Virus record (IMG/VR): IMGVR_UViG_3300025652_000497
Location: 1-25,188 of that record
Length of the DNA: 25,188 bases
DNA from: a virus
Strand: one strand, 5' to 3'
Positions 9,230 through 21,795 of this stretch are shown here, piece by piece. The notes under the pieces were generated by a model. The model saw only the letters and a list, made by a program, of their open reading frames with translations, had not been told where the DNA came from and did not search any database. Position numbers and translations under genes: made by a program. How positions within the stretch are numbered: position 1 is the first letter of the stretch; every line of letters begins with the position of its first letter.

Positions 9230-9380
9230 TGAATTGCCAAACGACTGGTGGAATTACGGTATTAATCCAATACTAGGTTATAGATATAACCCAGAGGGAA
9301 AGCGTTTTCACCTCAACACAAAAAACCCAAATAATGAAAACCCCAGAACTAAACCCAAAATACCAATCCCTAGGGAATGA
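9222..9380 (+). CDS. Small Pro/Asn-rich ORF between terminase genes, 52 aa
   Basis: ATG at 9222 overlaps the preceding gene by 8 nt and the ORF runs 47 nt into the TerL gene. The product (MNNELPNDWWNYGINPILGY...) has a credible N-terminal half with WW and Tyr residues; the second half is low-complexity Asn/Pro/Lys. It fills the otherwise empty gap before TerL. Could be a chance ORF. Confidence 0.35.
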   Translation: MNNELPNDWWNYGINPILGYRYNPEGKRFHLNTKNPNNENPRTKPKIPIPRE

Positions 9381-10539
9381 TAGTAGATACTTTGTAATTA
9401 CAGGTGGTAGGGGTAGCGGTAAATCTTTTAGCGTTACCTCTTTTCTTGCGTTACTTACTTTAGAGAAAGGTCATAAGATATTGTTTACTCGATATACTAT
9501 GACCTCTACAGCTAACTCAATTATCCCTGAATTTATAGAGAAGATTGAACTGTATGGTATTGGTGAGCATTTTAGGATAACTAAAGATGAGATTATAAAT
9601 ATCTCCACAGGAAGCTCTATAATGTTTAGAGGTATCAAAACCTCAGCAGGTAACCAAACAGCCTCTCTGAAGTCCTTACAAGGTGTTACAACGTTTGTAT
9701 TAGATGAAGCAGAAGAACTTATTAATGAAGATGACTTTGATAAGATTGACCAGTCTGTACGTTCTAAAGCTAAACAGAATAGAGTTATCCTAATCCTTAA
9801 CCCTACTACTAAGGAGCACTGGATATATCAAAGATTCTTTGCAGCTAAGGCAGTGAAAAGTGGATGGAATGGTTGGAAGGATAATATTACTTATATACAT
9901 ACTACCTTTAAAGATAATTTAGATAATTTATCAGAATCCTTCTTATTCCAAATAGAAGAGATTCGTAGACGTAGGCCAGACAAATACAATCACCAAATAT
10001 TAGGAGGTTGGTTAGATAAAGCTGAAGGTGTAGTATTTACGAGATGGGATATTGGGGATTTTAATGAGTATTTACCCTCTATATATGGGCAAGATTTCGG
10101 GTTTTCAGTAGATCCTACTGTACTACTCAAAATGGCTATAGATAAGGATAGGAAGAAGATATATGTCAAAACTCAATATTGTAAGGTAGGTTTGTCTACA
10201 AAAGAGATAGGGGAGCTAAATAGGAGATATGCTGGGGAAGAGCTTATTATCTGTGATAGTGCAGAACCTAGACTTATTCAGGAGCTAAAGATATATTGTA
10301 ATATCAAACCTACACTAAAGAAGCAGGGTAGTATCCTAACTGGGATAGCCTTGATACAAGATTATGATTTAGTGATTGACCCTGAATCTACAGAGTTAAT
10401 TAAGGAGCTTAACAATTATGTTTGGCACAGTAGGAATGAAAGACCTGTTGATAAATGGAATCACCACTTAGATAGTTTAAGGTATGGTGTTCAATATTTT
10501 TTAGCAAATATAAATAAAGGAAGTTATGTTATCCGATAA
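9334..10539 (+). CDS. terL: Terminase large subunit
   Basis: The packaging motor and genome-cutting nuclease, 401 residues, close to the usual size for the Terminase_3 group. ATPase motifs: Walker A GGRGSGKS (24-31), Walker B FVLDEAEE (121-128), and the coupling motif ILNPTT (154-159). Nuclease motifs: QDFGFSVDP with D254, IICDSAEP with D308, and HHLDSLRY with D380, giving the three acidic metal ligands. All catalytic positions are present, so the protein should be active. It would work with the small subunit upstream and a portal encoded outside the window. Confidence 0.96.
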   Translation: MKTPELNPKYQSLGNDSRYFVITGGRGSGKSFSVTSFLALLTLEKGHKILFTRYTMTSTANSIIPEFIEKIELYGIGEHFRITKDEIINISTGSSIMFRGIKTSAGNQTASLKSLQGVTTFVLDEAEELINEDDFDKIDQSVRSKAKQNRVILILNPTTKEHWIYQRFFAAKAVKSGWNGWKDNITYIHTTFKDNLDNLSESFLFQIEEIRRRRPDKYNHQILGGWLDKAEGVVFTRWDIGDFNEYLPSIYGQDFGFSVDPTVLLKMAIDKDRKKIYVKTQYCKVGLSTKEIGELNRRYAGEELIICDSAEPRLIQELKIYCNIKPTLKKQGSILTGIALIQDYDLVIDPESTELIKELNNYVWHSRNERPVDKWNHHLDSLRYGVQYFLANINKGSYVIR

Positions 10540-10560: not shown

Positions 10561-10663
10561 TTCTTAAACGCAGTACCCAAATTCTTAAACGCAGTGGGTT
10601 CTTAAACGCAGTACCCCACTGAACTCAGTACCCTCTTGAACGCAGTAGGTTCTTAAACGCAGT
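10561..10663 (+). repeat. Six-copy array of TTCTTAAACGCAGT
   Basis: Perfect 14-bp copies start at 10561, 10582, 10599 and 10650. Two degenerate copies lie between them (TGAACTCAGT at 10620-10629 and TCTTGAACGCAGT at 10634-10646). The last five are on a 17-bp period and the first is 21 bp from the second. Spacers are short and either A/C-rich (ACCC) or G-rich (GGG, AGG). The array begins 22 bp after the terL stop. A near-identical motif occurs at 884-922. Iteron-like regulatory or origin sites, packaging sites or recombination boundaries are possible. Confidence 0.85.
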
Positions 10664-10924
10664 AGGTATTTTCCCGTTTGCTTGCGTTTTGCAAGTAAGC
10701 CCTCTAAGCCCCTCAAATTTCTTTTAGGTAGGATACCACCTGAAATGGTATAAAGTCTCTTAAAACGTCTTAAAATAGCTTTCACGTTATTTTTATTAGT
10801 AATACAAAAAAAGCTATAATTGATAGGTTAAAAAAGTTTTATTTTCCTTGTATATTAAAAAAGTTTTATGTATTCGCGCGTACCTTAATTATATCTTTAC
10901 GATTAAAAATAAATTGTTTACTAT
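10664..10924. other. Gene-free stretch after the repeat array
   Basis: From the terL stop (10539) to the small ORF at 10983 no protein gene is credible. Besides the array, I see a hairpin CTTGC-GTTTT-GCAAG (10681-10695), a hairpin ATACCA / TGGTAT (10733-10751), and paired 15-bp direct repeats at 10828 and 10855. A minus-strand ORF at 10585-10785 is only the repeat array read backwards. Confidence 0.6.
10828..10869 (+). repeat. Two direct repeats of TTAAAAAAGTTTTAT
   Basis: Exact 15-bp copies at 10828-10842 and 10855-10869, 27 bp apart start to start, about 56 bp before the promoter at 10925. Position and A-tract content suggest a regulator-binding or DNA-bending site for that promoter. Confidence 0.65.
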
Positions 10925-10954
10925 TTGTTAATTATTAAATTATTTGTATATTTG
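10925..10954 (+). promoter_or_regulatory. Bacteroidota consensus promoter
   Basis: TTG at 10925-10927 (TTTG from 10924), 19 bp, TATATTTG at 10947-10954. Exact match to the host-type consensus. It would start transcription near 10960, 23 nt before the first ATG (10983), and drive the SH3-barrel/GP88 unit up to the terminator at 12674. Confidence 0.75.
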
Positions 10955-10982
10955 AATAAGTTTAACCAATAAAACAAAACAA

Positions 10983-11078
10983 ATGAAACTTTTAAAATTA
11001 CTAAACCAATTTACTTTATTATTCACTCTTTTATTTTTAGCCTATATTATTGGGCAAATTATAAGAGCTATTATTTAA
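10983..11078 (+). CDS. Tiny membrane peptide, 31 aa
   Basis: First ORF after the consensus promoter. MKLLKLLNQ followed by a hydrophobic helix (FTLLFTLLFLAYIIGQII). It could be a small membrane peptide or a poorly cleaved signal-like leader. It ends 19 bp before the next gene. Function unknown. Confidence 0.5.
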   Translation: MKLLKLLNQFTLLFTLLFLAYIIGQIIRAII

Positions 11079-11097
11079 CCAATTAAAAACCAAAGAA

Positions 11098-11418
11098 ATG
11101 AATCAACAACAATTATTTAAAGAAATTACAAGCGGGAAAATATTTACAGCTGAGTTTATTAAGAAAGATAACACTAGACGTGTAATTAATTGCCGTACTA
11201 ATGTAAAAAAGTTCACTAATGGCAAAGGGTTAAATTTTGATCCAATTGTGAGGAATTTACTACCCGTATACGATCTAAAAGCAAAAGATTATAGATTTAT
11301 AAATTTATCAACTCTAATAAGTGTAACTATAAAAGGGCAAAAGTATTTTATAAACGATATTATAATTAACGAAAGTATTAATAAAATTAAGGAACTAAAT
11401 AAAACTATATTAAAATGA
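11098..11418 (+). CDS. SH3 beta-barrel fold-containing protein
   Basis: A 106-residue protein matching, from memory, a Bacteroidota phage family annotated 'SH3 beta-barrel fold-containing protein'. The typical line is an opening helix (QQLFKEITSGKIFTAEFIKKDNTRR), then KKFTNGKGLNFDPIVRNLLPVYDLKAKDYRFINLSTLISV. The role is unknown. It overlaps the following GP88 gene by 4 nt (ATGA), so the two are made together. Spaced AACCAAAGAA before the ATG is an A-rich leader typical of the host phylum, which lacks strong Shine-Dalgarno use. Confidence 0.72.
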   Translation: MNQQQLFKEITSGKIFTAEFIKKDNTRRVINCRTNVKKFTNGKGLNFDPIVRNLLPVYDLKAKDYRFINLSTLISVTIKGQKYFINDIIINESINKIKELNKTILK

Positions 11419-12158
11419 GCTACACAATACCAAAAAACTTATTAAGTAAAGGAATAACGAATGCCAAAACGGTAAAGAATGATATTGAAACTTTTATATT
11501 ATATCTTGCACCGCATAAACAAAACGCCAAAGGGGTGAATATTTGTCCAGCTGCTTCGACTGGCTGTGTCGCTGCTTGCCTTTATTCCGCTGGACGTGGA
11601 AAGTTTTCGAATGTCCAAAAGTCAAGAATTAATAAAACTAATTTTTATATATCAAATAAAAGTTTATTTATTAAAAAGCTAGCAACGGAAATTTTAAGAG
11701 AATATACCAAAGCTAAAAAGAAAGGTATCAAGATAGCATTTAGATTAAACGGTACCTCGGATTTAGATTTTGTTTACTTGCTGCAAAAATACGCGGGTTT
11801 AGATATTAGTACCTTGAAAGACGTTGCAACGTTTTATGACTACACAAAGCTATTAGGTAAAGTAAAAAAATATCTTAATCATCCTAATTATTTTGTAACC
11901 TTTTCCCGCTCCGAAATTAATGAGAGCGTTGCAATTGCGGTCCTTAATATGGGCGGTAATGTTGCTGCGGTTTTCTCTAATAACTTACCAAACTACTGGA
12001 GGGGCTTTAAAGTAATTGATGGGGATAAGTCAGACCTTGAAATGATATACAATACTAATGTGGTCCTAGGATTAAAAGCCAAAGGTGACGCACGTAAAGA
12101 CTCGAGCGGGTTTGTAATAGAAAGCAAAGCGGATATATTAATAAAACAATTAAACTAA
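11415..12158 (+). CDS. GP88 family protein (possible metal- or Fe-S-binding)
   Basis: A 247-residue protein resembling the phage 'gene product 88' family. The hallmark is a cysteine motif near the front, C44-PAASTG-C51-VAA-C55 (C-x6-C-x3-C), then LYSAGRGK. Further motif-like stretches are RLNGTSDLDF (110-119), TFYDYTKL (139-146) and VTFSRSE (161-167), spaced like strands of one alpha/beta domain. The three cysteines could hold a metal or iron-sulfur cluster; I know of no proven function. It is the main gene of a unit with its own promoter and terminator, between packaging and tail genes. Confidence 0.75.
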   Translation: MSYTIPKNLLSKGITNAKTVKNDIETFILYLAPHKQNAKGVNICPAASTGCVAACLYSAGRGKFSNVQKSRINKTNFYISNKSLFIKKLATEILREYTKAKKKGIKIAFRLNGTSDLDFVYLLQKYAGLDISTLKDVATFYDYTKLLGKVKKYLNHPNYFVTFSRSEINESVAIAVLNMGGNVAAVFSNNLPNYWRGFKVIDGDKSDLEMIYNTNVVLGLKAKGDARKDSSGFVIESKADILIKQLN

Positions 12159-12163
12159 ATATA

Positions 12164-12505
12164 ATGGAAACAAAAGAAAATAAATACCCATATTTGGGAG
12201 CGTACGAAATTGAACAAGTAAAGAAAGAAACAACAGAGGAAATACTTGAGAGACTCAATAGCAGCGAAAAGAAATATAAACGCCTTTATTGGGACTGTCA
12301 ACACTGGGGCTCTGTTATCATTCATATATATAAGAATGGTATTGAGCTGCAAAGAATAGAACTAAACGAAGAGGATACCGCAAACGGTTTTGATTTTACC
12401 GATATAAAAAGTATTGCTAATGATTTAGAAAATATCTATCAAGACGACAAAAGTTTAACAGAGGTATTAATGACGTTTAAATCGGAATGGGACGAAAGAC
12501 AATAA
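12164..12505 (+). CDS. Unknown protein, 113 aa
   Basis: An acidic, soluble protein 5 bp after the GP88-like gene. N-terminal half helical and charged (EQVKKETTEEILERLNSSEKKYKRLYW), with aromatic DCQHWGSVIIHIYKNG in the middle and an acidic helical end. Minus-strand ORFs over it are shadows. No family recognised. Confidence 0.62.
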   Translation: METKENKYPYLGAYEIEQVKKETTEEILERLNSSEKKYKRLYWDCQHWGSVIIHIYKNGIELQRIELNEEDTANGFDFTDIKSIANDLENIYQDDKSLTEVLMTFKSEWDERQ

Positions 12506-12515
12506 TAAATAAGAA

Positions 12516-12650
12516 ATGAAATATATAAAACAACTAAACCAGACGTTTTATTCTGTTGAATTGGATAATAAGTACTTTATATCTAATATGAATGGATTAA
12601 ACAAAAGGATAAGTGAGGAGGAATATTTTAAACTCACTGAACAGAATTAA
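12516..12650 (+). CDS. Small protein, 44 aa
   Basis: Follows the previous gene by 10 bp and ends 23 bp before a strong terminator, so it is the last gene of the unit. The product MKYIKQLNQTFYSVELDNKYFISNMNGLNKRISEEEYFKLTEQN (44 residues, read 12516-12650) looks like a tiny beta-hairpin plus helix. Function unknown. Confidence 0.5.
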   Translation: MKYIKQLNQTFYSVELDNKYFISNMNGLNKRISEEEYFKLTEQN

Positions 12651-12673
12651 AGTACTTTTTTTGTTTTGTTTGG

Positions 12674-12711
12674 ATATCCTTAAAGATTAATTTCTTTAGG
12701 GATATTTTTTT
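12674..12711 (+). terminator. Strong intrinsic terminator
   Basis: ATATCCTTAAAGA (12674-12686) pairs with TCTTTAGGGATAT (12693-12705), 13 bp with one T-G wobble, loop TTAATT, followed by six T (12706-12711). It ends the unit driven from 10925. Confidence 0.82.
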
Positions 12712-12976
12712 GGATATATTCTAAACTTAATTTGTTGATTAACAATATAGTTAATTATCTACTATATACCGCCCTCTTCCTTTATCACCCCCTTCTCAAG
12801 CCCCCTCAGAGCTCTTCTAAGAGACTTTTATACTAATTATGTACCTAAGCTCCATTCAGGGGTAAAGTTGCTTAAATTGACGTAAAATGAGTGTAGGGGC
12901 GTTGTGGGTATGAGGTTTTGGAAATTCACCCACTTTTCAAAAGGGGTTAACTAAAATCAGAAAATCAAACGGATAC

Positions 12977-13013
12977 AAAAAACCCTCCAGAGAACTTAAT
13001 CTAAGGAGGGTTT
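12977..13013 (-). terminator. Minus-strand intrinsic terminator
   Basis: AAACCCTCC (12980-12988) and GGAGGGTTT (13005-13013) form a perfect 9-bp stem with a 16-nt loop. On the minus strand the stem is followed by a run of six T (complement of A12977-12982). On the plus strand only TTT follows, so it mainly serves leftward transcription. Confidence 0.72.
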
Positions 13014-13038
13014 AATGCTTATATAAAAATGTCAAATA
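12977..13038 (-). ncRNA. Predicted ~60-nt minus-strand small RNA
   Basis: Bounded by a consensus minus-strand promoter (13044-13073) and the terminator at 12977-13013. No gene of useful length lies inside; a 9-codon ORF (MYLTFLYKH) starts close to the expected 5' end. It is the only well supported leftward transcript in the window. Confidence 0.5.
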
Positions 13039-13043
13039 CATTA

Positions 13044-13073
13044 CAAATATAGTAATAATATTTTAAATAGCAA
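13044..13073 (-). promoter_or_regulatory. Bacteroidota consensus promoter, minus strand
   Basis: On the minus strand: TTG (13073-13071), 19 bp, TATATTTG (13051-13044), an exact match to the phylum consensus. Transcription would start near 13038 and run left into the terminator about 60 nt away. Confidence 0.68.
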
Positions 13074-13093
13074 AATATTTGAGAAAAGAATAT

Positions 13094-13196
13094 AGTTAGG
13101 GCTTTCCTGACTTGGGGTTTATGATAACCTAGAGTTTTCTAAAGATATAGTTTACTATAGATTTAATAGCCCACTTATTGTGGTCTATTGGTTATC
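13094..13196 (+). other. Clustered hairpins, possible structured RNA
   Basis: AGTTAGG / CCTGACT hairpin (13094-13112, one wobble). GATAACC (13123-13129) can pair with GGTTATC (13190-13196), enclosing two further hairpins: TATAG-TTTA-CTATA (about 13146-13159) and AATAGCCCAC-TTATT-GTGGTCTATT (13165-13189, one mismatch). Together this is a three-way-junction shape. A+T-rich DNA makes such stems by chance, so support is modest. Confidence 0.32.
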
Positions 13197-13236
13197 TGTA
13201 GATATAACTGACTTTTATACAAAGTGTTTTATTTTC

Positions 13237-13253
13237 ATATTGTAATACAATAT
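13237..13253. promoter_or_regulatory. 17-bp palindrome, operator candidate
   Basis: ATATTGTAATACAATAT: two perfect 8-bp arms around one central A. It lies 23 bp before the start of the tail gene operon and has the size of a dimer-binding operator. Confidence 0.5.
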
Positions 13254-13262
13254 AACCTATTA

Positions 13263-13276
13263 ATAGTTATAACTAT
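13263..13276. promoter_or_regulatory. 14-bp perfect palindrome abutting a start codon
   Basis: ATAGTTATAACTAT, fully self-complementary, ending at the base before the ATG at 13277. It may be an operator, or in the mRNA a weak stem next to the start codon. Confidence 0.42.
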
Positions 13277-13981
13277 ATGAATAAGAAGTTCACCTTAACA
13301 ATACCAAAAGAATTGTCTGCTGTACCGTTACATCAGTATCAGAAATACCTAAAGGTAATGGATGATAATGAAGGTGCAGAGGATGTAGAGTTTATCAATT
13401 TAAAAGTATTAGAGATATTCTGTGGGCTTTCATTAAAAGATGCTTATAATTTACCTTTAGCAGAGTTCTCTACAATCATATCTCATATAGTAGATATATT
13501 TAAGGAGGATACACCTTTGCAAAGGGACTTTACCTTAACAGATCCTAATGGGGATAGTGTAACCTTTGGGTTTATACCTAAGCTAGATGACATTACTTTA
13601 GGTGAATTTGTAGACTTAGACAACTATATAGGGGACTGGCAGCAGATACACAAGGCTCTAGCCGTACTGTATAGACCGATAACCTTTAGAAAAGGGGAAT
13701 TGTACCTTATAGAAGATTATGAAGGCTCTGATAAGTATGCAGAGATAATGAAAGATGCACCAGTTAATGTAGCTTTAGGTGCAACTGTTTTTTTTTATCA
13801 TTTAGGGAACGATTTGTCTCGCTATTTGATGGACTCTTTAACTCAAGATCTAGCGAAGGACAAGGAGTTGGAGAGGGATTTGGAGAAAAATGGGGTTGGT
13901 ATCAATCAATTTACGCAATCGCTGGAGGAGATATCACTAGGTTTGAAAAAGTTGCAAAGTTATCGGCTGCCGAATGCCTAA
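13277..13981 (+). CDS. Tail assembly chaperone, short form
   Basis: A 234-residue protein of the kind placed before tail genes in Bacteroidota phages, thought to correspond to the gpG/gpGT-type chaperones that coat the tape measure protein before tail assembly. Recognisable stretches are KLDDITLGEFVDLDNYIGDW (102-121), ALAVLYRPITFRKG (127-140) and VALGATVFFYHLGNDLSRY (164-183). The C-terminal part is a charged helix (LAKDKELERDLEK) followed by NGVGINQFTQSLEEIS. It starts just after a 14-bp palindrome. Evidence for a frameshifted long form is given in the next entry. Chaperone assignment is from family memory and position. Confidence 0.65.
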   Translation: MNKKFTLTIPKELSAVPLHQYQKYLKVMDDNEGAEDVEFINLKVLEIFCGLSLKDAYNLPLAEFSTIISHIVDIFKEDTPLQRDFTLTDPNGDSVTFGFIPKLDDITLGEFVDLDNYIGDWQQIHKALAVLYRPITFRKGELYLIEDYEGSDKYAEIMKDAPVNVALGATVFFYHLGNDLSRYLMDSLTQDLAKDKELERDLEKNGVGINQFTQSLEEISLGLKKLQSYRLPNA

Positions 13982-14049
13982 CTTGGCTAGAATTTGAGAA
14001 AGAGAAAAACGATTTAGAAGCAAAATTGATAAAACAAAAGAGTAAATGA
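13888..14049 (+). CDS. Chaperone C-terminal extension read by -1 frameshift
   Basis: In the -1 frame relative to the short form, the sequence from 13891 encodes 52 residues that look like a real domain: WGWYQSIYAIAGGDITRF, then KLSAAECLTWLEFEKEKND, ending LIKQKSK. I recall this W-rich pattern from Bacteroidota phage proteins at this position. It has no start codon of its own. Its TGA (14047-14049) overlaps the next ATG (14046) as ATGA, the packing used throughout this genome. A shift at the run GAAAAAT (13885-13891), or upstream at the nine-T run (13788-13796), would join the frames; the first gives a product of about 257 residues. Confidence 0.62.
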   Translation, partial: KWGWYQSIYAIAGGDITRFEKVAKLSAAECLTWLEFEKEKNDLEAKLIKQKSK

Positions 14050-14507
14050 GACAAGTATATACCGTAATAGAGAAGTTGCAGGAGAAATTACAAGGTAATG
14101 ATATTACAAATACAGTGACTTTTGGGGATATACTTCAAGTTGACTTGAATAAAACAACAATATACCCACTAGCCCACATTTATATTTCTCAAGTTGTATT
14201 CCCTGAACATATAGTTGAGGTATCTATTCAATTGTATTGCCTAGATATAGTGGATAAGACTAACGAGCCTAATAATAACGTAATGATTTATGGAAGTGAC
14301 AACCTTCAAGACGTATTAAACACACAATTACAAGTCGTTAATGATATCCAAGCTGAGTTAAGAAGGGGTGGGTTGTTTGATGAGAACCTACAGTTAACTA
14401 CAGATATTACAGCTACACCTTTTATGGATGATTATGAGAATGAATTAGCTGGCTGGGCTGTAACAATAAATATAGAAATGCCTAACACTGAACATACTAT
14501 TTGTTAA
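14046..14507 (+). CDS. Tail completion/terminator-like protein
   Basis: A 153-residue protein starting in an ATGA overlap with the frameshifted reading upstream. Typical stretches are SIQLYCLDIVDKTNE, then NVMIYGSDNLQDVLNTQLQVVNDIQAELRRGGL and a C-terminal AGWAVTINIEMPNTEHTIC. The pattern is common in Bacteroidota siphovirus tail clusters and resembles small tail-terminator or neck proteins in length and beta/alpha make-up; the exact role is not established from sequence alone. Confidence 0.55.
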   Translation: MRQVYTVIEKLQEKLQGNDITNTVTFGDILQVDLNKTTIYPLAHIYISQVVFPEHIVEVSIQLYCLDIVDKTNEPNNNVMIYGSDNLQDVLNTQLQVVNDIQAELRRGGLFDENLQLTTDITATPFMDDYENELAGWAVTINIEMPNTEHTIC

Positions 14508-14971
14508 TGGAAACAGAGTACACGAAAAAGGTATTAGAAAGGTATAAAAAGGTTATTGTAAAAGACCTAAAGAAGGAATTAGATAAACCTAACAGTAATC
14601 TAAGTAAGAGTATTGTTGGAAGTATGATGACCGATAAGGATGGGTTTACAGTCAGTATGAACGACTACGGACTTAACGTCAATAATGGTAGAAGGGCAGG
14701 AGAGTTTCCTATACCACAAAAATTAGAAGATTGGGTTAGAAGAAATAGCTCAACAATAGGAGTTGAAGACATAAGTCCATCAGGGATTAGAAGGGTATCG
14801 TTTTTAATTGGTAGGTCTATATCTAGGAAAGGAATAAGACCAACTAGGTTTATAGATATAGTTCTTGAAAGAGTAGAACCAAAATTAACACAAGATATAG
14901 CAAACGCATATCTTAAAGATTTAAATATAGAATTAGATAAAATTGTAAAGAATGTCAGTAATAAAACTTAA
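14507..14971 (+). CDS. Head-tail/tail component, HK97 gp10-like
   Basis: 154 residues from the ATG at 14507, which overlaps the previous stop (TAATG); a TTG two codons earlier is less likely. After a helical N-terminus comes [32 protein letters not shown], then [18 protein letters not shown] and a final helix. 'NGR..G..P....L..W' plus 'I..RG..PT.F' is the usual look of small head-tail joining or tail proteins. It overlaps the next gene by 20 nt. Confidence 0.6.
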
Positions 14972-15890
14972 CGGTAGAAGTCCCTTTTTTGTAGTTGCTA
15001 GTAATACTGCAACACCTACTCCTACACCGACCCCAACACCTACTCCAACACCAACCCCTACACCTGTACCCACACCAGTACCGACCCCAACTCCGACCCC
15101 TACACCGACCCCTACACCGACCCCAACACCTGTTCCTACAGCACCTACACCTACACCTACGCCTACTCCTACCCCAACCCCTACACCTACCCCTGTACCT
15201 ACAGCTCCTACTATATACTACAGGGAATATAGAAATCTAGCTTCTTGTCCTAGTACTGTAGAGGGTGCAGGAATTGTAAGAAATATATCGCACACTTCTA
15301 ACTCATTCCCTACTTATATCAGAACAACACAAGATGGGACTGAATGTTTATATAGTTATGCAACTGGTAGCTCTTCTGGAGCAGTATCCTTAACAGGTGG
15401 TAGTGTAACCACTTTTGCAAACTGTACAGATTGTTTTACTCCACCTACTTATTACTCTTTAACTAGGTGTAACCCTGAAGCATCAGGATTTACAACATCA
15501 CAAACAACTTCCGAAATATCGCTAAGTCCAAATGATATTGTATTGTCAGGAGCTACCTACTTCAGAGTCACAGGAACTACGACTACGGTGGGTAATTCTG
15601 TTACAGTTTCAACAACTGCATTATCAGAATGTCCTCCTGTATGTACTGGAATATCAATCTACAGAAGTTTAAACTCTGCACAAGAGGCTTGTTGTTCTGC
15701 TAAAGGAAGTACACAGTACTTTAACGATACCACAGTAAGTAACGCTACTAGCTTTTATGCTTTTGATAGTGGTTGTGCTACACTACATTCAGGAACTGCC
15801 TATATTATGGCAGCTAATGAACTAGGATACTATTATACGTTTGTTAATGGAATCAAAACCGCTGGCCCAACATTATGTCCTAACTGCTAG
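14952..15890 (+). CDS. Fibre-like protein with Pro-Thr stalk and Cys-rich modules
   Basis: A 312-residue, probably virion-surface protein. N-terminal 20 residues (with NGRSPFFVV) may anchor it to the tail. Residues 21-87 are a nearly pure Thr-Pro repeat with a few Val/Ala changes, a stiff extended stalk. Residues 88-312 hold three similar beta-rich modules that begin with a Tyr-rich segment and end in paired cysteines: CTDC (158-161), CPPVC (227-231) and CPNC (309-312), twelve Cys in all. This suggests a receptor-binding or adhesin head. The next genes encode a P4H-like oxygenase and glycosyltransferases, which may modify the stalk (inference). No signal peptide is visible, as expected for a phage structural protein. 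Confidence 0.7.
15012..15212 (+). repeat. Thr-Pro coding tandem repeat
   Basis: About 200 bp of near-continuous ACN-CCN codon pairs. The protein order is (TP)9, VPTPVP, (TP)8, VPTAP, (TP)8, VPTAP: the last two blocks are a duplicated unit. Codon third bases vary, so the DNA is not a perfect repeat, but slippage or recombination could still change stalk length. Confidence 0.85.
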
Positions 15891-15904
15891 TAAAATTATA
15901 AAAT

Positions 15905-16363
15905 ATGAAATACTTAAACTACGACTTAATAACACCATATCAAGGTGAGAACTTTAAAATAAAGAAGGAATATAATGACTTATTCTTTCATTATAAAGAA
16001 GGCTTTTATTCTGAAAGCAGGTACTTAAACTTTATGGTTGACGATTTAACTGAAAACTATTCTACAGCTTTAGTAGTGGGACTAGGATTAGGTGTAATAC
16101 CACAGTGGTTGGCTAACGAAAAGGGTGCTATTGTAGATGTTGTTGAGCAAGATAGGGAGCTTATAAACGTAATAAATGGGTATAACCACCTTTCAGAAAA
16201 TATATCTATAATACATTCAGACATATTTGAATTTACACAAGAGAAAGAGTATGACTTGATTGTTTTTGATATTTGGTTTGACAAAGACAATATAACTCAA
16301 GAAATACAAGATACTTTAAACGATAGATTTACAGCTAATCAAATATGCTACCCACTTTTATAA
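15905..16363 (+). CDS. SAM-dependent methyltransferase-fold protein (spermidine synthase-like)
   Basis: A 152-residue Rossmann-fold protein. TALVVGLGLGVIPQWLA (54-70) is motif I, which holds S-adenosylmethionine or its decarboxylated form; VDVVEQDRELI (77-87) supplies the acidic loop residue E81; ISIIHSDIFEF (100-110) and YDLIVFDIWFD (116-126) are the later core strands. The layout resembles spermidine synthase-like proteins but is about half their length, so substrate domains are missing. It sits between the fibre gene and the oxygenase gene with 14 and 1 bp gaps, suggesting a part in fibre or glycan modification, by context only. Confidence 0.75.
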   Translation: MKYLNYDLITPYQGENFKIKKEYNDLFFHYKEGFYSESRYLNFMVDDLTENYSTALVVGLGLGVIPQWLANEKGAIVDVVEQDRELINVINGYNHLSENISIIHSDIFEFTQEKEYDLIVFDIWFDKDNITQEIQDTLNDRFTANQICYPLL

Positions 16364-16364
16364 T

Positions 16365-16949
16365 ATGGAATACACTTCGAAAGACCAAATACCAAGATTA
16401 ACTCCGACTGGTTTTCAAATTGTTAAATGCCCTGAAAAGACTTGGGGATTGATTCAAGATGCTTATAAATTATTAAAGCCTACAGAGACTACTGAAGACT
16501 TTGAGGGTAAAGATTATTATATAAAGGGTGGCGATACTGAACTTATGGATTTCGGGCAAATATCTAATATTAGAGATGAGATTCATAATCAGTTATGGGA
16601 TTTGCATCAAGATTGGTGTGGAAAAGAAATAGAACCTAGTTATATCTATGGGATACGTTCATATAAAAAAGGAGCTACATTAAAATTACACACAGACACC
16701 GTTACAACGCATCATATAGCTTCCATTATAATTGTAGATAAGAATTTAAAGTGTGGGTGTAAAGACAAGGATCTTGGAAGTGACTGGGCTTTAGACTTTC
16801 AAACACACGACGGAGAATGGCACAAGGTTTATGCTGAAGTGGGTGATATGATAATGTATGAGAGTGCAATATGTGAACACGGTAGAACAGACCCTTTTGA
16901 GGGAAAATACTTCAACAACTTTTACGTGCACTACAAATTCAAGGAATGA
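16365..16949 (+). CDS. Prolyl-4-hydroxylase-like 2OG-Fe(II) oxygenase
   Basis: A 194-residue oxygenase that would use Fe(II), O2 and 2-oxoglutarate to hydroxylate a substrate. The iron site is H109-T-D111 in LKLHTDTVTTH and the distal H172 in ICEHGRTDPFEGK; K181 nine residues later fits the 2-oxoglutarate-binding base of P4H enzymes. Supporting family text is WALDFQTHDGEWHKVYAEVGDMIMYESA (141-168) and a final strand YFNNFYVHYKF. All catalytic residues are present. The neighbouring fibre stalk is half proline, an obvious candidate substrate, although free amino acids or other proteins are possible. The stop overlaps the next ATG by 4 nt. Confidence 0.85.
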   Translation: MEYTSKDQIPRLTPTGFQIVKCPEKTWGLIQDAYKLLKPTETTEDFEGKDYYIKGGDTELMDFGQISNIRDEIHNQLWDLHQDWCGKEIEPSYIYGIRSYKKGATLKLHTDTVTTHHIASIIIVDKNLKCGCKDKDLGSDWALDFQTHDGEWHKVYAEVGDMIMYESAICEHGRTDPFEGKYFNNFYVHYKFKE

Positions 16950-17770
16950 TTACTATTCCAGTAACTGTAGCTATCCCTTATTTTAAGAAGCAGATAGATT
17001 TCTTTCAATATCAACATATTGAAGTTTATGGAGATAATGCAAAGAACAAAGTCATTATACCTATAGTTAAAAGAAATAACAAATCAGAGGAAATAAAAGA
17101 AGATATTGATTGGAATATGAGACTTCCTTATCAAATGGTAGACTCAATATTAGACATATACAATCTTGAAGAGGATTGGTATATACCGACAAATGTCTTT
17201 ACAGCAGCAAAACAAGTTATAAGACACTTACCAAATGATGAGATTGTAGAGATAATAGATGCAGACTTGGTTCATTTAAAAAAATATGATGGATATATTC
17301 CTAAAAGGAATGAGATTATTGCTGATGCTACTTATGAGAATTGGCACTTAAAAACATCAACTAAACAAAGCGAGCATTTTCCTGTAATAAGCAAGTACTT
17401 GAGACATCAGGACTTCAAATATATGAACGGAGGGTTTAATGTTATATCTAGGGTTGACACTATAATGAGAATAATTGATGAAGTTATTCAGGTTAGTATT
17501 GATATAAGTAGAACTGAAAAGGGTAGTACTGTGGGTTGGTGGCAAGCTATGTACGGATTAAACGTAGCGTGTCATAACAATAGAATCAAAATGATAGATA
17601 CTCGTAACTGCTACTACCCAAGCGTAAACGAGTTAAAGCCTCAGCATCATATAGCCCATTACTGTTGTGATCATATATTTAACAAAAGAGATATGGATAA
17701 CATAAATGAAGAAGAATTTCCTGATAATCAATTTTATAATCAAGCTAAGAAATGGTTAAAGAGTGTCTAG
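16946..17770 (+). CDS. Glycosyltransferase, possibly HPAT/SGT1-like
   Basis: A 274-residue GT-A-type protein. EIIDADLVHLK (103-112) supplies the DxD metal/sugar-nucleotide motif (D105, D107) after a Rossmann-like start (VTVAIPYFKKQIDFF). KYMNGGFNVISR (158-169), GWWQAMYGLNVAC (197-209) and PQHHIAHYC (232-240) follow. By eye, the W..xMYG.....A stretch and the later His-Tyr resemble plant peptidyl-serine galactosyltransferase (SGT1, GT96) and hydroxyproline O-arabinosyltransferase (HPAT, GT95) proteins. I cannot score this. It is translationally coupled to the P4H-like gene before it and overlaps the next gene by 19 nt. The general glycosyltransferase call is firmer than the subfamily. Confidence 0.62.
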   Translation: MITIPVTVAIPYFKKQIDFFQYQHIEVYGDNAKNKVIIPIVKRNNKSEEIKEDIDWNMRLPYQMVDSILDIYNLEEDWYIPTNVFTAAKQVIRHLPNDEIVEIIDADLVHLKKYDGYIPKRNEIIADATYENWHLKTSTKQSEHFPVISKYLRHQDFKYMNGGFNVISRVDTIMRIIDEVIQVSIDISRTEKGSTVGWWQAMYGLNVACHNNRIKMIDTRNCYYPSVNELKPQHHIAHYCCDHIFNKRDMDNINEEEFPDNQFYNQAKKWLKSV

Positions 17771-18561
17771 TATTAGCTCACAGCGATAGTGAGAGAGCGA
17801 GTAAAACCCTTGTTAATTGTGTATCATTATTAAAAGATAAGGGATATAGAGTTGTAGTTTCAGATCACTTCTTCAACAAAGAGGCTTACGAACTAGCTGA
17901 TGCCTTTGTGTACAACTACGAAAATCCAATACTCACTCCTAGTCAATACAAAAAATACAATCTTAATCATACAACGCATAAAGATATAGATGGGTATAGA
18001 CTATACAGCCCAGTAAGTTCTTTTGCTGCTTACGCTATAATTGAATTAATAAAGTCAGGATTTGATGCTATAACTAGTAAAAAATGTTTAGTGTTAAATT
18101 ATGATTGGCATATGAAGGAAGATATAGATGAATATTACAGCATAAATAAAGATGGGGTGTTCTTTAGATATGCAGACGATAAGTCTTTCTATACTTCAAT
18201 TTTTATGATGAATAAAGAGCTTTTAAGGGAGTTATATCAAATAAACAGTATTGATGATTACGCAGAGAATTTAAAGTATTTAGAATGGTTCTTTTACGAT
18301 TTATATAGCAAAAAGAATATAAGCATAATAGACCAAGTACCTTCGGATAGATTTGATGATAATCTTTACTATAGAGTTTCTGAAATAAATATAGACAAAA
18401 AGTTTTATAAGGTTTCTGATGGGAAGGTGATATATGTAGATGGTGATAAAATACAAGAATACACTGAACATAAACAATACAGACTGATTGAAGGCGACAA
18501 AACATATATAGCAAATTTAGGTGAGGATTACTTTACCTATCATATTGCTGTTAAACTCTAA
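17752..18561 (+). CDS. Second glycosyltransferase-like protein
   Basis: A 269-residue protein opening CLVLAHSDSERASKTLVNCVSLLKDKGYRVVVSDH (5-39), then ADAFVYNYENPILTPSQY (49-66): the start pattern of a GT-A glycosyltransferase group I recall from marine phages and bacteria ('list of changes in a call, then a neighbouring Y-ENP-L-T'). A single-Asp motif NYDWHMKEDI (116-125) could stand in for DxD. The C-terminal 80 residues are beta-rich repeats of short strands (KVSDGKVIYVDGDK). No donor or acceptor can be named. It ends the fibre-modification cassette; 40 bp later the tail genes resume. Confidence 0.52.
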   Translation: MVKECLVLAHSDSERASKTLVNCVSLLKDKGYRVVVSDHFFNKEAYELADAFVYNYENPILTPSQYKKYNLNHTTHKDIDGYRLYSPVSSFAAYAIIELIKSGFDAITSKKCLVLNYDWHMKEDIDEYYSINKDGVFFRYADDKSFYTSIFMMNKELLRELYQINSIDDYAENLKYLEWFFYDLYSKKNISIIDQVPSDRFDDNLYYRVSEINIDKKFYKVSDGKVIYVDGDKIQEYTEHKQYRLIEGDKTYIANLGEDYFTYHIAVKL

Positions 18562-18601: not shown

Positions 18602-19627
18602 ATGCCAAATCTAACTCAAGCTCAATTAGACCTAAAGGTTTATACAGGAGGATTCTCCTCTGGTAGACCAGCCTCACCTACATACACCATAATAAAGAAA
18701 GTTATAGCTGACGAAGAAAGTGTTATGTTCGAGATAGCTGAATTGTTCAAGGATTATATGGAAGCAACGTTTAGTGGTAATTATGCAACTATATCTACAT
18801 CCGTTTGGGTTTATTGGGATATACTAAAGACTTATGATGACACAACAACTCAAACTGAAGACGGATATGGTTTGGGATTACAGGGATACGGTTATTTTGG
18901 TGATTCAGTAAATCCTCAGCTCAACACTGGTAAGCAAATGGATAATGTTAATCTATACATACCAGAAGGCGAGAGTATAACAATACCAATATTCAAAGGT
19001 ACTGGAGGCGTTACAAACGTTAAATTGTATAAGGATGGCTCAATCTTTTCTAACTTAAACTACCTGATAATTGATGTTCCTGCTGGAGATACAGATCCTG
19101 AAGACTTAATAGAGTATGTTAGAGATGCTAATGATATCGATTATGCTGTTATAACAAAAGAAGATTCAACTACGCAAACTGTATATGTAAACAAAATATG
19201 CAGCCCTAAATACTCTCCATACAAAATATCTTTCTTAAACAGATATGGTGTAATACAGGATTTGTGGTTTTTCAATAAGAGAACAGATTCTTTAAGCATT
19301 TCAAGAGAAAAGTACACAAGAAACACAATCTCTATCCTTAATAATTTAACTCCATTCTATCCTACAAACAAAGCAACAGACGTAACGCTAGATATAAAGG
19401 CTGATAAGAAAATGACTTTAAATACTGGATTTGTGAATGAAGAATACACTGAGGTAATTCAACAATTATTGCTATCTGAAAATGTTTGGATAACTGAATC
19501 TAGTAACGTTTATCCGGTAATTCCACAGACTCAGGAGTTAGTTTACAAAACTAGATTGAATGATAAGCTAATAAACTTCTCTGTTGAATTTAAGTATGCC
19601 TATAATGAATTTAATATTGTTCGATAA
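18602..19627 (+). CDS. Tail structural protein, 341 aa
   Basis: A beta-rich protein (many alternating hydrophobic strands, Tyr/Thr/Asn rich) that I recognise as a common type in Bacteroidota siphovirus tail clusters, without a defined role. ISFLNRYGVIQDLWFFNKRTDSLSISRE in the middle is its most distinctive part. The stop overlaps the next start (TAATG at 19625-19629). It probably forms part of the tail tip or distal tail. Confidence 0.6.
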   Translation: MPNLTQAQLDLKVYTGGFSSGRPASPTYTIIKKVIADEESVMFEIAELFKDYMEATFSGNYATISTSVWVYWDILKTYDDTTTQTEDGYGLGLQGYGYFGDSVNPQLNTGKQMDNVNLYIPEGESITIPIFKGTGGVTNVKLYKDGSIFSNLNYLIIDVPAGDTDPEDLIEYVRDANDIDYAVITKEDSTTQTVYVNKICSPKYSPYKISFLNRYGVIQDLWFFNKRTDSLSISREKYTRNTISILNNLTPFYPTNKATDVTLDIKADKKMTLNTGFVNEEYTEVIQQLLLSENVWITESSNVYPVIPQTQELVYKTRLNDKLINFSVEFKYAYNEFNIVR

Positions 19628-21795
19628 TGCAGAACGTACAATTGTATATAGATGGAGAGCGTGCTGATTTATTTGAAGGAGACACAATTACATTACAGTC
19701 AAGTATACAGAATATAAGAGATATTCAGAAGGTTTTTGCTGACTACACCAAAGGATTATCCCTTCCAGCTTCCAAGACAAACAACAAAATATTTAAGCAC
19801 TTCTACAACTTTGATATTGAGAATGGCTTTAATGCCAGAAAAAAAGTAAGTGCGGAAATCCATATAAATTACGTTCCATTTAAAGTCGGTAAGATTGCTC
19901 TTAATTCTGTCAAGATGAGACATAATAAGGCTTTTTCTTACGACATAACATTTTTTAGCAATATAGTTGAATTGCCAGATAGATTAGGCAGTAAGTTGCT
20001 TGGAGACTTGCAGTTATTTATAAATGGTACTTATGATCATCCACTAAGTGAATCTAGTGTGAAGAATGGACTTACAACAGGATTGACTATAAACGGAAGC
20101 ACTAATGCTGTAATATATCCACTTATATCCGTAAAGAAAAGACTTTATTATGATTCTAGGGGTGATTCAGCCCCAGAAGGGGAAAGATTTAGGGGTAATC
20201 TTCACTATAGTTCGGTGACAAGAGGTTTGACTTGGGATGATTTAAAGCCAGCTATAAAAGCAATTCACGTTATAGAGGCTATAGAGCAAGAAATAGGGAT
20301 TGATTTCACTAGAGACTTCTTTGGCACAACTCCTATGGATAACCTATATCTTTGGCTAAATACAGTGCCAGAGGATAACACAGAGGTTTCTAATACAGAG
20401 CAGAGTATTACTTTAGATGGTTGGAACTTGTATAATAGCACAGCTATAAACCAAATAATATTCTCTGGAACAAAACTCAACCTACTCGTTAACGTAACTC
20501 CAGAAACATATAAATATGAACTTACATATTCAATCCTAACAGGAGACACCACTACTCCTTATGTAGCGAGAATAATAGACGATATAACAAACACGGTTTT
20601 GTTTCAGTTTGAAGAGACTAAAGGAGGTCAACAGCACCTTAGAACTTTGATAAATAATGGATCAGTAGATCCCTATAGATTAAGATTTGAAGTCACCTCA
20701 ACAGGTTCTTTGTCTTTTAGCTCAACGGTAAAGATAGATTTACTTAGCGCAACAAATGTCTTGTATGATAGCGTAACTTATGAAACTGGTATTACAGGTG
20801 GGGCAATAAACACTGAATCAACTCTTCAGATGTACAAACAATTCCCTAAGATAAGAGCGATAGACTTTATTACTGGAATATGGAAAATGTTCAATTTAAC
20901 AGCTTACTACGTTGATGATATAAGGGATGCTAACTACGGAAAAATATACGTTGATACTTTAGACAACTTCTATAATGATAATACAAGTAATCCATTAGGA
21001 GGTACAATAGACATACAGAATTATATAGATATTACTGAAAGTGTTATTGATTCAGCTCTACCATACACTGAGATAGACTTCAATTATCGAAAGCCTGACA
21101 CTTTATTAGCAGAGCAGCACTTAGAAAAGTTTGGTCAAGTATTTGGAGATGAGCAGTATAGAGAGAACGAAGCTAATATAGATAATGACAGGATATATAC
21201 CTTGAGTCTACCTTTCGCACACTTTAAATACGAAAGAATAAGGGATATAAATCCATCCACAAATAATGAAATAACTAGAATACAGTGGGGCTATTCAGCT
21301 TCTGGAGATATAGATGAAACTACTGGTGATTATGATTCGGTGATATCTAGCCCCCTTTTATTTTATGGAGTAAGAGAGACTGGAATACCAAGTGGAGACG
21401 GAATAAATTGGATTAATAATTTTGGTTCTGGTTCTGCATCTTCGGAGCAGCTCCTTAATTACTGGAGACCATCTAACGCAAATGAAGCTGGTGGTTTAGC
21501 AATACCTCCTACATACTCATTAAATTTTGATGCAGAAGTTGATGAATGGCAATCTATTGATTATGGATTGGATAGTGGCTCTCTATTTAACAATTTCTAT
21601 AAAGAATATATAGAGGAGGTTTTTAATCAGAAAAGAAGATTGTCTAAGTTCACTTGTCATCTTCCAGTTCAGATTGTGCAGAACTTTAAACTGAATGACT
21701 ACATAAAAATACTATCTCACCTATATAAGATTAACACTATAAAGTTAAACCTAAATACTGGTAAGGCTGAGGTTGAATTATTAAACATTATATAA
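19627..21795 (+). CDS. Large tail (tip/baseplate-like) protein, 722 aa
   Basis: A long, beta-rich structural protein typical of Bacteroidota phage tail clusters. N-terminal YIDGERADLFEGDTITLQSSIQNIRDIQKVFADYTKGLSLPASKTNN is the recurring start pattern. The middle is Thr/Asn-rich beta sequence; the end (FKLNDYIKILSHLYKINTIKLNLNTGKAEVELLNI) reads like a baseplate hub-type beta barrel, which I note only as a resemblance. It overlaps both neighbours by single bases, so it is part of one operon. Confidence 0.65.
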   Translation: MQNVQLYIDGERADLFEGDTITLQSSIQNIRDIQKVFADYTKGLSLPASKTNNKIFKHFYNFDIENGFNARKKVSAEIHINYVPFKVGKIALNSVKMRHNKAFSYDITFFSNIVELPDRLGSKLLGDLQLFINGTYDHPLSESSVKNGLTTGLTINGSTNAVIYPLISVKKRLYYDSRGDSAPEGERFRGNLHYSSVTRGLTWDDLKPAIKAIHVIEAIEQEIGIDFTRDFFGTTPMDNLYLWLNTVPEDNTEVSNTEQSITLDGWNLYNSTAINQIIFSGTKLNLLVNVTPETYKYELTYSILTGDTTTPYVARIIDDITNTVLFQFEETKGGQQHLRTLINNGSVDPYRLRFEVTSTGSLSFSSTVKIDLLSATNVLYDSVTYETGITGGAINTESTLQMYKQFPKIRAIDFITGIWKMFNLTAYYVDDIRDANYGKIYVDTLDNFYNDNTSNPLGGTIDIQNYIDITESVIDSALPYTEIDFNYRKPDTLLAEQHLEKFGQVFGDEQYRENEANIDNDRIYTLSLPFAHFKYERIRDINPSTNNEITRIQWGYSASGDIDETTGDYDSVISSPLLFYGVRETGIPSGDGINWINNFGSGSASSEQLLNYWRPSNANEAGGLAIPPTYSLNFDAEVDEWQSIDYGLDSGSLFNNFYKEYIEEVFNQKRRLSKFTCHLPVQIVQNFKLNDYIKILSHLYKINTIKLNLNTGKAEVELLNII

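Follow-up and report, generated by a model that had tools for sequence, protein, structure and literature searches.

What does an oxygenase resembling prolyl hydroxylases act on when its gene stands in a phage tail operon, between a gene for a proline- and threonine-rich stalk protein and genes for glycosyltransferases (GTs)? The question is raised by a 25,188-base viral contig from IMG/VR (record IMGVR_UViG_3300025652_000497, here called the window, in its full length). A sequence-only reading had proposed that the prolyl 4-hydroxylase (P4H)-like enzyme and the GTs modify the Pro-Thr stalk, a proposal that family identifications and comparative genomics now support. The best reading of these data is that such phages probably encode both prolyl hydroxylation and hydroxyproline (Hyp)-O-glycosylation of their virion stalks. 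Taken separately, hydroxylation of the stalk prolines is predicted with good confidence, and a Hyp-linked sugar on the stalk is considered probable. The five open reading frames of the cassette agree to the base with the coordinates on which the proposal was built, including their order, gaps and overlaps:

14952 to 15890, + strand: Pro-rich virion stalk protein of 312 aa, with a short N-terminus, a (T/V/A)-P stalk and a Cys-rich C-terminal part
15012 to 15203, + strand: Thr-Pro repeat DNA, an imperfect tandem repeat
15905 to 16363, + strand: protein of the class I S-adenosylmethionine (SAM) methyltransferase fold, MTS family at the cut-off; gap of 14 bp after the stalk gene
16365 to 16949, + strand: stand-alone 2-oxoglutarate (2OG)-Fe(II) oxygenase with a predicted prolyl-hydroxylase fold; gap of 1 bp after the methyltransferase gene
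16946 to 17770, + strand: glycosyltransferase of the HPAT family (plant hydroxyproline O-arabinosyltransferases; PF23452, GT95-like); overlap of 4 bp with the oxygenase gene
17752 to 18561, + strand: GTx, a protein with a predicted GT-A fold and without a named family; overlap of 19 bp with the HPAT gene

The co-occurrence of P4H genes with Pro-rich proteins in other phages, which the same reading had named as a check, is pronounced. Scans of viral contigs gave 110 usable loci, grouped into 45 clusters at 90% identity of the C-terminal oxygenase domain; a protein was counted as Pro-rich if it has at least 9 Pro in 30 residues, and partner genes were counted within 8 kb of the P4H gene. A Pro-rich protein is encoded in 42 of the 45 clusters, in 40 of them within 500 bp upstream of P4H and often with a second one downstream, while one of the three remaining clusters is a 2.4 kb fragment. 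HPAT (20 clusters), GT60 (19) and/or O-fucosyltransferase (O-FucT; 10) genes are present in 39 clusters, and further partners are carbamoyltransferases (7), PhyH-like proteins (7), GTx (7) and radical SAM proteins (3). The GT60 (PF11397) assignments score 56-274 bits (cut-off 21) and those of O-FucT 41 and 78 bits (cut-off 31.5). When HPAT alone was searched for, 28 loci were obtained, and P4H lies just upstream in all 27 in which the upstream side is present. At three loci (L315-L317), a Pro-rich gene is accompanied by O-FucT, GT60 and carbamoyltransferases, and P4H was not detected within the flank; these have either another oxygenase or a Thr-linked sugar.

Two controls back this association. 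In the first, phages were fetched by a DNA pattern of a conserved tail protein, irrespective of P4H. Among these 50 records, a Pro-rich gene is found in 3/3 with P4H, as compared with P-X repeats in 2/47 without it (p = 5e-4); in both P4H-negative exceptions the contig breaks off less than 2 kb from the tail gene, at the place expected for P4H. In the second, 76 new loci were obtained by scanning for GT60, although some of the P4H-positive contigs had already been met in the P4H scan, and a Pro-rich gene is present in 17/25 with P4H versus 3/51 without (p = 2e-8), or 12/18 versus 1/14 after clustering (p = 9e-4). It is also common for GT60 to occur with neither P4H nor a Pro-rich gene. The Pro-rich gene tracks P4H, rather than GT60 or the tail gene alone, in a sample of related phages that are not independent and of records many of which are fragments.

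The window stalk comprises about 67 residues (roughly 21-87), and 32 Pro and 30 Thr are found among the 71 residues from 18 to 88; the Thr-Pro stalk noted at the outset is thus present, with T, V and A mixed before Pro. All four Pro and all four Thr codons are used, and at the DNA level the repeat is imperfect, with 66-82% matches; therefore the repeat appears to be kept at the protein level and not to be a fresh DNA slippage array. The cassette has a near-identical copy in L003 and diverged ones in L004 and L005. In L003 the repeat differs in length beside otherwise near-identical genes, while the L004 stalk measures 313 aa and consists mainly of V-P plus T-P/A-P, next to enzymes that are 91-97% identical to those of the window. 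Because the repeats differ beside such similar enzymes, the repeat is judged to change fast while its Pro-dipeptide nature stays. Across 331 Pro stretches, 83% of 4,542 prolines are preceded by A, S, T or V, with hardly any charged residues. (A/S/T/V)-P sequences with few charged residues are the pattern of plant arabinogalactan-type proteins, and the stalks share with these proteins the clustered, non-contiguous arrangement of such repeats. The Cys-rich C-terminal part of the window stalk is common to the Pro-rich proteins of other P4H phages, and a domain akin to it recurs between Pro linkers in tail proteins (L011, L044, L049, L078 and others).

The window oxygenase retains the HxD...H iron triad (HTD and the distal H) and the basic 2OG-binding residue of peptidyl P4Hs. 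The latter is a Lys at +9, which we take to be PHD-like spacing, as in PHD2. Its AlphaFold model (pLDDT 95, pTM 0.90) shows a double-stranded β-helix fold that is closest to prolyl hydroxylases, with the P. putida prolyl hydroxylase (alone and with EF-Tu), the Dictyostelium PHD and human PHD2 as best PDB matches at TM-scores of about 0.5-0.65. The description of an intact P4H-like oxygenase therefore stands, and the enzyme is predicted from its residues and model to work like a P4H, short of a claim to plain family membership. It is orthologous to the C-domain of tandem P4H-P4H proteins, mostly 376-438 aa in length, to which nearly all oxygenases of the related phages belong. The N-domain of these tandem proteins matches solved P4Hs in a PDB profile search (B. 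anthracis, 122 bits; human C-P4H alpha-2, 86; Chlamydomonas, 83) and 2OG-FeII_Oxy_3 at 50-57 bits, and its catalytic H, D, H and K(+10) are invariant in 71/71 distinct sequences. Judged by these profiles and residues, it is an unmistakable peptidyl P4H. The N-half of the long relatives had also been considered as a fused methyltransferase, as suggested by the methyltransferase of the window, but the sequences and the PDB profile search show a second canonical P4H domain instead. In the C-domain, HxD and H are kept in nearly all sequences and the Lys at +9 in 16/70, including both stand-alone enzymes of the window type. By sequence, the window phage relies on such a C-type domain with its catalytic residues retained; an N-type P4H elsewhere in this phage was not found in three sister records, all of them partial. 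In two tandem proteins (L014 and L017, both at 9305-10537), the C-domain has lost HxD (T.E) while the N-domain is intact, and the C-domain may have turned into a binding or scaffold domain. In PHROG, the window oxygenase best matches phrog_2954 (9e-14), whose name, 'ferrochelatase', is very probably a mislabelling of 2OG oxygenases.

The sequence-only reading had also described a methyltransferase-fold protein and two GT-like proteins. The first GT scores above the Pfam HPAT cut-off (25.8 versus 23.9 bits), as do the proteins of four sister records (28 bits); the HPAT profile further matches 12 of 20 diverse relatives (best 4e-8), and the GT-A catalytic DxD (D105, D107) is invariant in 20 sequences. 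On its Pfam score, the protein is assigned to the HPAT family as GT95-like. HPATs act on Hyp produced by P4H (PMC8012813), and GT60 includes Gnt1, which adds N-acetylglucosamine (GlcNAc) only after hydroxylation of a Skp1 proline (PMC6939170), and hence the two families that adjoin P4H in these phages, HPAT in the window and 12 of the 20 relatives and GT60 in other P4H loci, both use Hyp in eukaryotes, as the proposal would predict. A medium-confidence model of GTx, which has no named family, resembles GT-A enzymes and nucleotidyltransferases, among them GT8, glycogenin and a PBCV-1 glycosyltransferase, and so points to a GT-A-like fold. The methyltransferase lies just above the MTS cut-off (23.5 versus 23 bits), is found only in loci of the window type and is predicted, perhaps, to O-methylate the sugar or Hyp. 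An NCBIfam search gave nothing specific, and searches of PDB sequences with the HPAT, GTx and C-type oxygenase profiles gave chance matches only. Relatives of the HPAT protein were found neither in 84,980 prokaryote genomes, at the sensitivity of that search, nor in cultured phages.

Oxygenases and GTs also cooperate in DNA hypermodification, and an activity on modified bases, like that of TET/JBP with TAGT, would account for the same pair of enzymes. One weak TAGT match, below the cut-off, lies in the large GT of L013, a 1228-aa protein (10610-14296) that also contains GT60 and O-FucT and has a tandem P4H and two Pro-rich proteins as neighbours. No TET/JBP oxygenase was matched among the window proteins scanned, which are part of the window's reading frames. 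Since the oxygenase is of P4H type and the GTs belong to protein-glycosylating families beside virion genes, this explanation is barely credible and is set aside.

Several observations weigh against hydroxylation and Hyp-linked glycosylation of the stalk, the first of which concern the enzymes themselves. The window oxygenase is divergent: it has no match in a Pfam search, 2OG-FeII_Oxy_3 included, and only chance matches in a profile search of PDB sequences. In the tandem proteins the C-domain is often devoid of the +9 Lys, and in two its HxD is lost. The HPAT match is modest (26-28 bits), and the window showed no pathway for UDP-arabinose. The divergence of the stand-alone oxygenase would also fit an enzyme whose substrate is a small molecule of a glycan pathway, such as a sugar or an amino acid, with the GTs decorating the virion or host surface by unrelated chemistry, and the PhyH-like and carbamoyltransferase neighbours in the relatives are typical of small-molecule or glycan tailoring. 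Such a role is very improbable, given that the N-domains of the tandem relatives are clear peptidyl P4Hs and that the modelled fold of the window enzyme is nearest to protein prolyl hydroxylases.

A second set of opposing points concerns the acceptor residue. Thr is the residue that most commonly precedes Pro in the Pro stretches (39%), GT95 is related to GT96, whose member SGT1 galactosylates Ser (PMC8012813), and GT60 includes the T. cruzi polypeptide GlcNAc-transferase (PMC6939170). The stalk could accordingly be hydroxylated and glycosylated with the sugars on Thr/Ser and not on Hyp, hydroxylation serving only to stabilise the polyproline helix. O-FucT enzymes, too, usually act on Ser/Thr. 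Every HPAT locus comes with P4H, however, for which there would be no need if the sugars could be added without Hyp, and the L004 stalk has long V-P stretches free of Thr; sugars on Thr/Ser are therefore regarded as a rather unlikely alternative.

The third set concerns the target. In two larger phage groups, L006-L009 (records of up to 122 kb) and L036/L039 (63 kb), a tandem P4H, HPAT and GT60 lie away from any P-X stalk; a Pro-repeat stalk was not found in the 63 kb record, and only a short PKIPNPIP occurs in one protein of the 122 kb record. The target in these groups must be something else or lie outside the contig. P4H-like genes without a Pro-rich protein nearby and with another proven substrate had been named beforehand as grounds for giving up the stalk; the former thus exist in few groups, while no other proven substrate is found there. 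The same groups would be expected if the enzymes modified a host target (EF-Tu, a host surface glycan or 2-oxoglutarate metabolism) and the Pro-rich gene were a mere neighbour in a hypervariable insertion site. The match of the window oxygenase model to the P. putida enzyme solved with EF-Tu points the same way, and cyanophage 2OG oxygenases have been published as host-metabolism genes (PMC9602691). A host target is at odds with the tight coupling between P4H and Pro-rich virion genes, which holds across several phage backgrounds and both controls, and this explanation is considered improbable.

A cultured example is Synechococcus phage S-SCSM1, in which ORFs 113, 114 and 117 encode O-FucT, a P4Hc homologue (37% identity to the window oxygenase) and a carbamoyltransferase near each other, and which also has GDP-fucose synthesis genes. 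It thus resembles the phages described here in its gene set, but these genes were interpreted as host-metabolism genes and not as virion modification (PMC9602691). Mass-spectrometry data on the virion of this phage exist (PMC9602691). Two of its virion-annotated proteins have P-X repeats, ORF217 (SPTPTPRPSPTPIPTPSPTP) and ORF19 (about 110 residues). In ORF19, a protein of 2603 aa (L245, 23462-31273), the repeat differs from the A/S/T/V type in its high content of Arg, Gln and Asn.

The cassette had been described as inserted within the tail gene operon, which is confirmed by synteny with P12024S, a phage of the marine flavobacterium Nonlabens. The terminases of the two phages are 54% identical, and the host of the window phage is probably a member of the Flavobacteriia. 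In a comparison of the two genomes, window positions 13277-13981 correspond to P12024S_38, 14046-14507 to P12024S_41, 18602-19627 to P12024S_44 and 19627-21795 to P12024S_45. The genes bordering the cassette are:

14501 to 14971, + strand: neck/tail-completion gene (phrog_5, weak) of the conserved backbone on the upstream side
18602 to 21795, + strand: two structural genes of the downstream backbone, homologous to P12024S_44 and _45

Because the homologues of the flanking genes lie close together in P12024S without the cassette between them, the 3.6 kb block 14952-18561 is read from synteny as an insertion between neck and tail genes, or as a loss from P12024S. The homologue of P12024S_44 is shorter (341 versus 474 aa, its N-terminal part unaligned), and the stalk gene may replace this part.

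Hyp-linked glycosylation is known from eukaryotes. In the Hyp-rich glycoproteins of plants and green algae (arabinogalactan proteins, extensins), P4H is followed by HPAT1-3/GT95, and the phage set shares the P4H-type hydroxylase, the HPAT-family transferase and an (A/S/T/V)-P structural protein (PMC8012813). It differs in being cytoplasmic, in forming one operon with its target, in having no Golgi anchor and in its modest sequence similarity. The Skp1 pathway of Dictyostelium and Toxoplasma likewise combines a cytoplasmic prolyl hydroxylase (PhyA) with a GT60 GlcNAc-transferase, Gnt1 (PMC6939170); related phages pair P4H with GT60, and the Dictyostelium PHD is among the solved folds closest to the window oxygenase. 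Its target, however, is a single Skp1 proline and not a repeat stalk, and in the window HPAT, and no GT60, stands next to the hydroxylase. Chloroviruses (PBCV-1), which are algal viruses, have an active P4H that acts on Pro-containing peptides, but Hyp was not detected in their virions (PMC7019647), a further point against the proposed modification. Glycans are present on capsid and tail tube subunits of mycobacteriophages (cited in PMC12619734), for which the part of the literature covered by the search reports no prolyl hydroxylase or Pro-repeat target. No report of Hyp-linked glycosylation in phages was found in the literature searched, and the proposal brings together Hyp glycosylation of eukaryotes and the glycosylation of phage virions, each known by itself, in a combination not described there. 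We know of no linked Hyp glycosyltransferase for the chlorovirus P4H.

The genes, their families, the insertion and the association with Pro-rich proteins are observed, and substrate, linkage, sugar and benefit are inferred. In the proposed mechanism, the prolyl hydroxylase would convert the (T/V/A)-P prolines of the stalk to Hyp, onto which the HPAT-family enzyme would place the first sugar. GTx would probably extend this sugar, and the methyltransferase may cap the glycan. The resulting polyproline-II stalk, coated with sugar, would then extend the virion at its neck or tail as a stiff structure that resists proteases; stiffening, resistance to proteases or shielding may be the purpose. In the relatives, one and the same hydroxylase is retained next to Pro-rich tail proteins, and the sugar genes (HPAT, GT60, O-FucT, carbamoyltransferase, radical SAM) are swapped around it, as expected for a decoration under diversifying selection; this swapping of modules around a fixed P4H suggests selection for a varied surface sugar.

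In its general form, the proposal is held with slightly better than even confidence: phages would O-glycosylate Hyp in the stalks of their own virions much as plants and amoebae do, using a constant P4H core and interchangeable modules for the sugars, and some of the 2OG-Fe(II) oxygenases of marine phages now classed as auxiliary metabolic genes would in reality serve to make virion glycoproteins. If true, this would give a testable role to a large set of puzzling oxygenases in marine phages, whose genes are currently assigned to host metabolism, and would place HPAT-type enzymes in the viral gene pool. It would also offer a compact one-operon source of hydroxylase and glycosyltransferase for plant-like glycoproteins in bacteria. 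For the phages of Flavobacteriia, it would suggest that a stiff, sugar-coated stalk is a common tail element.

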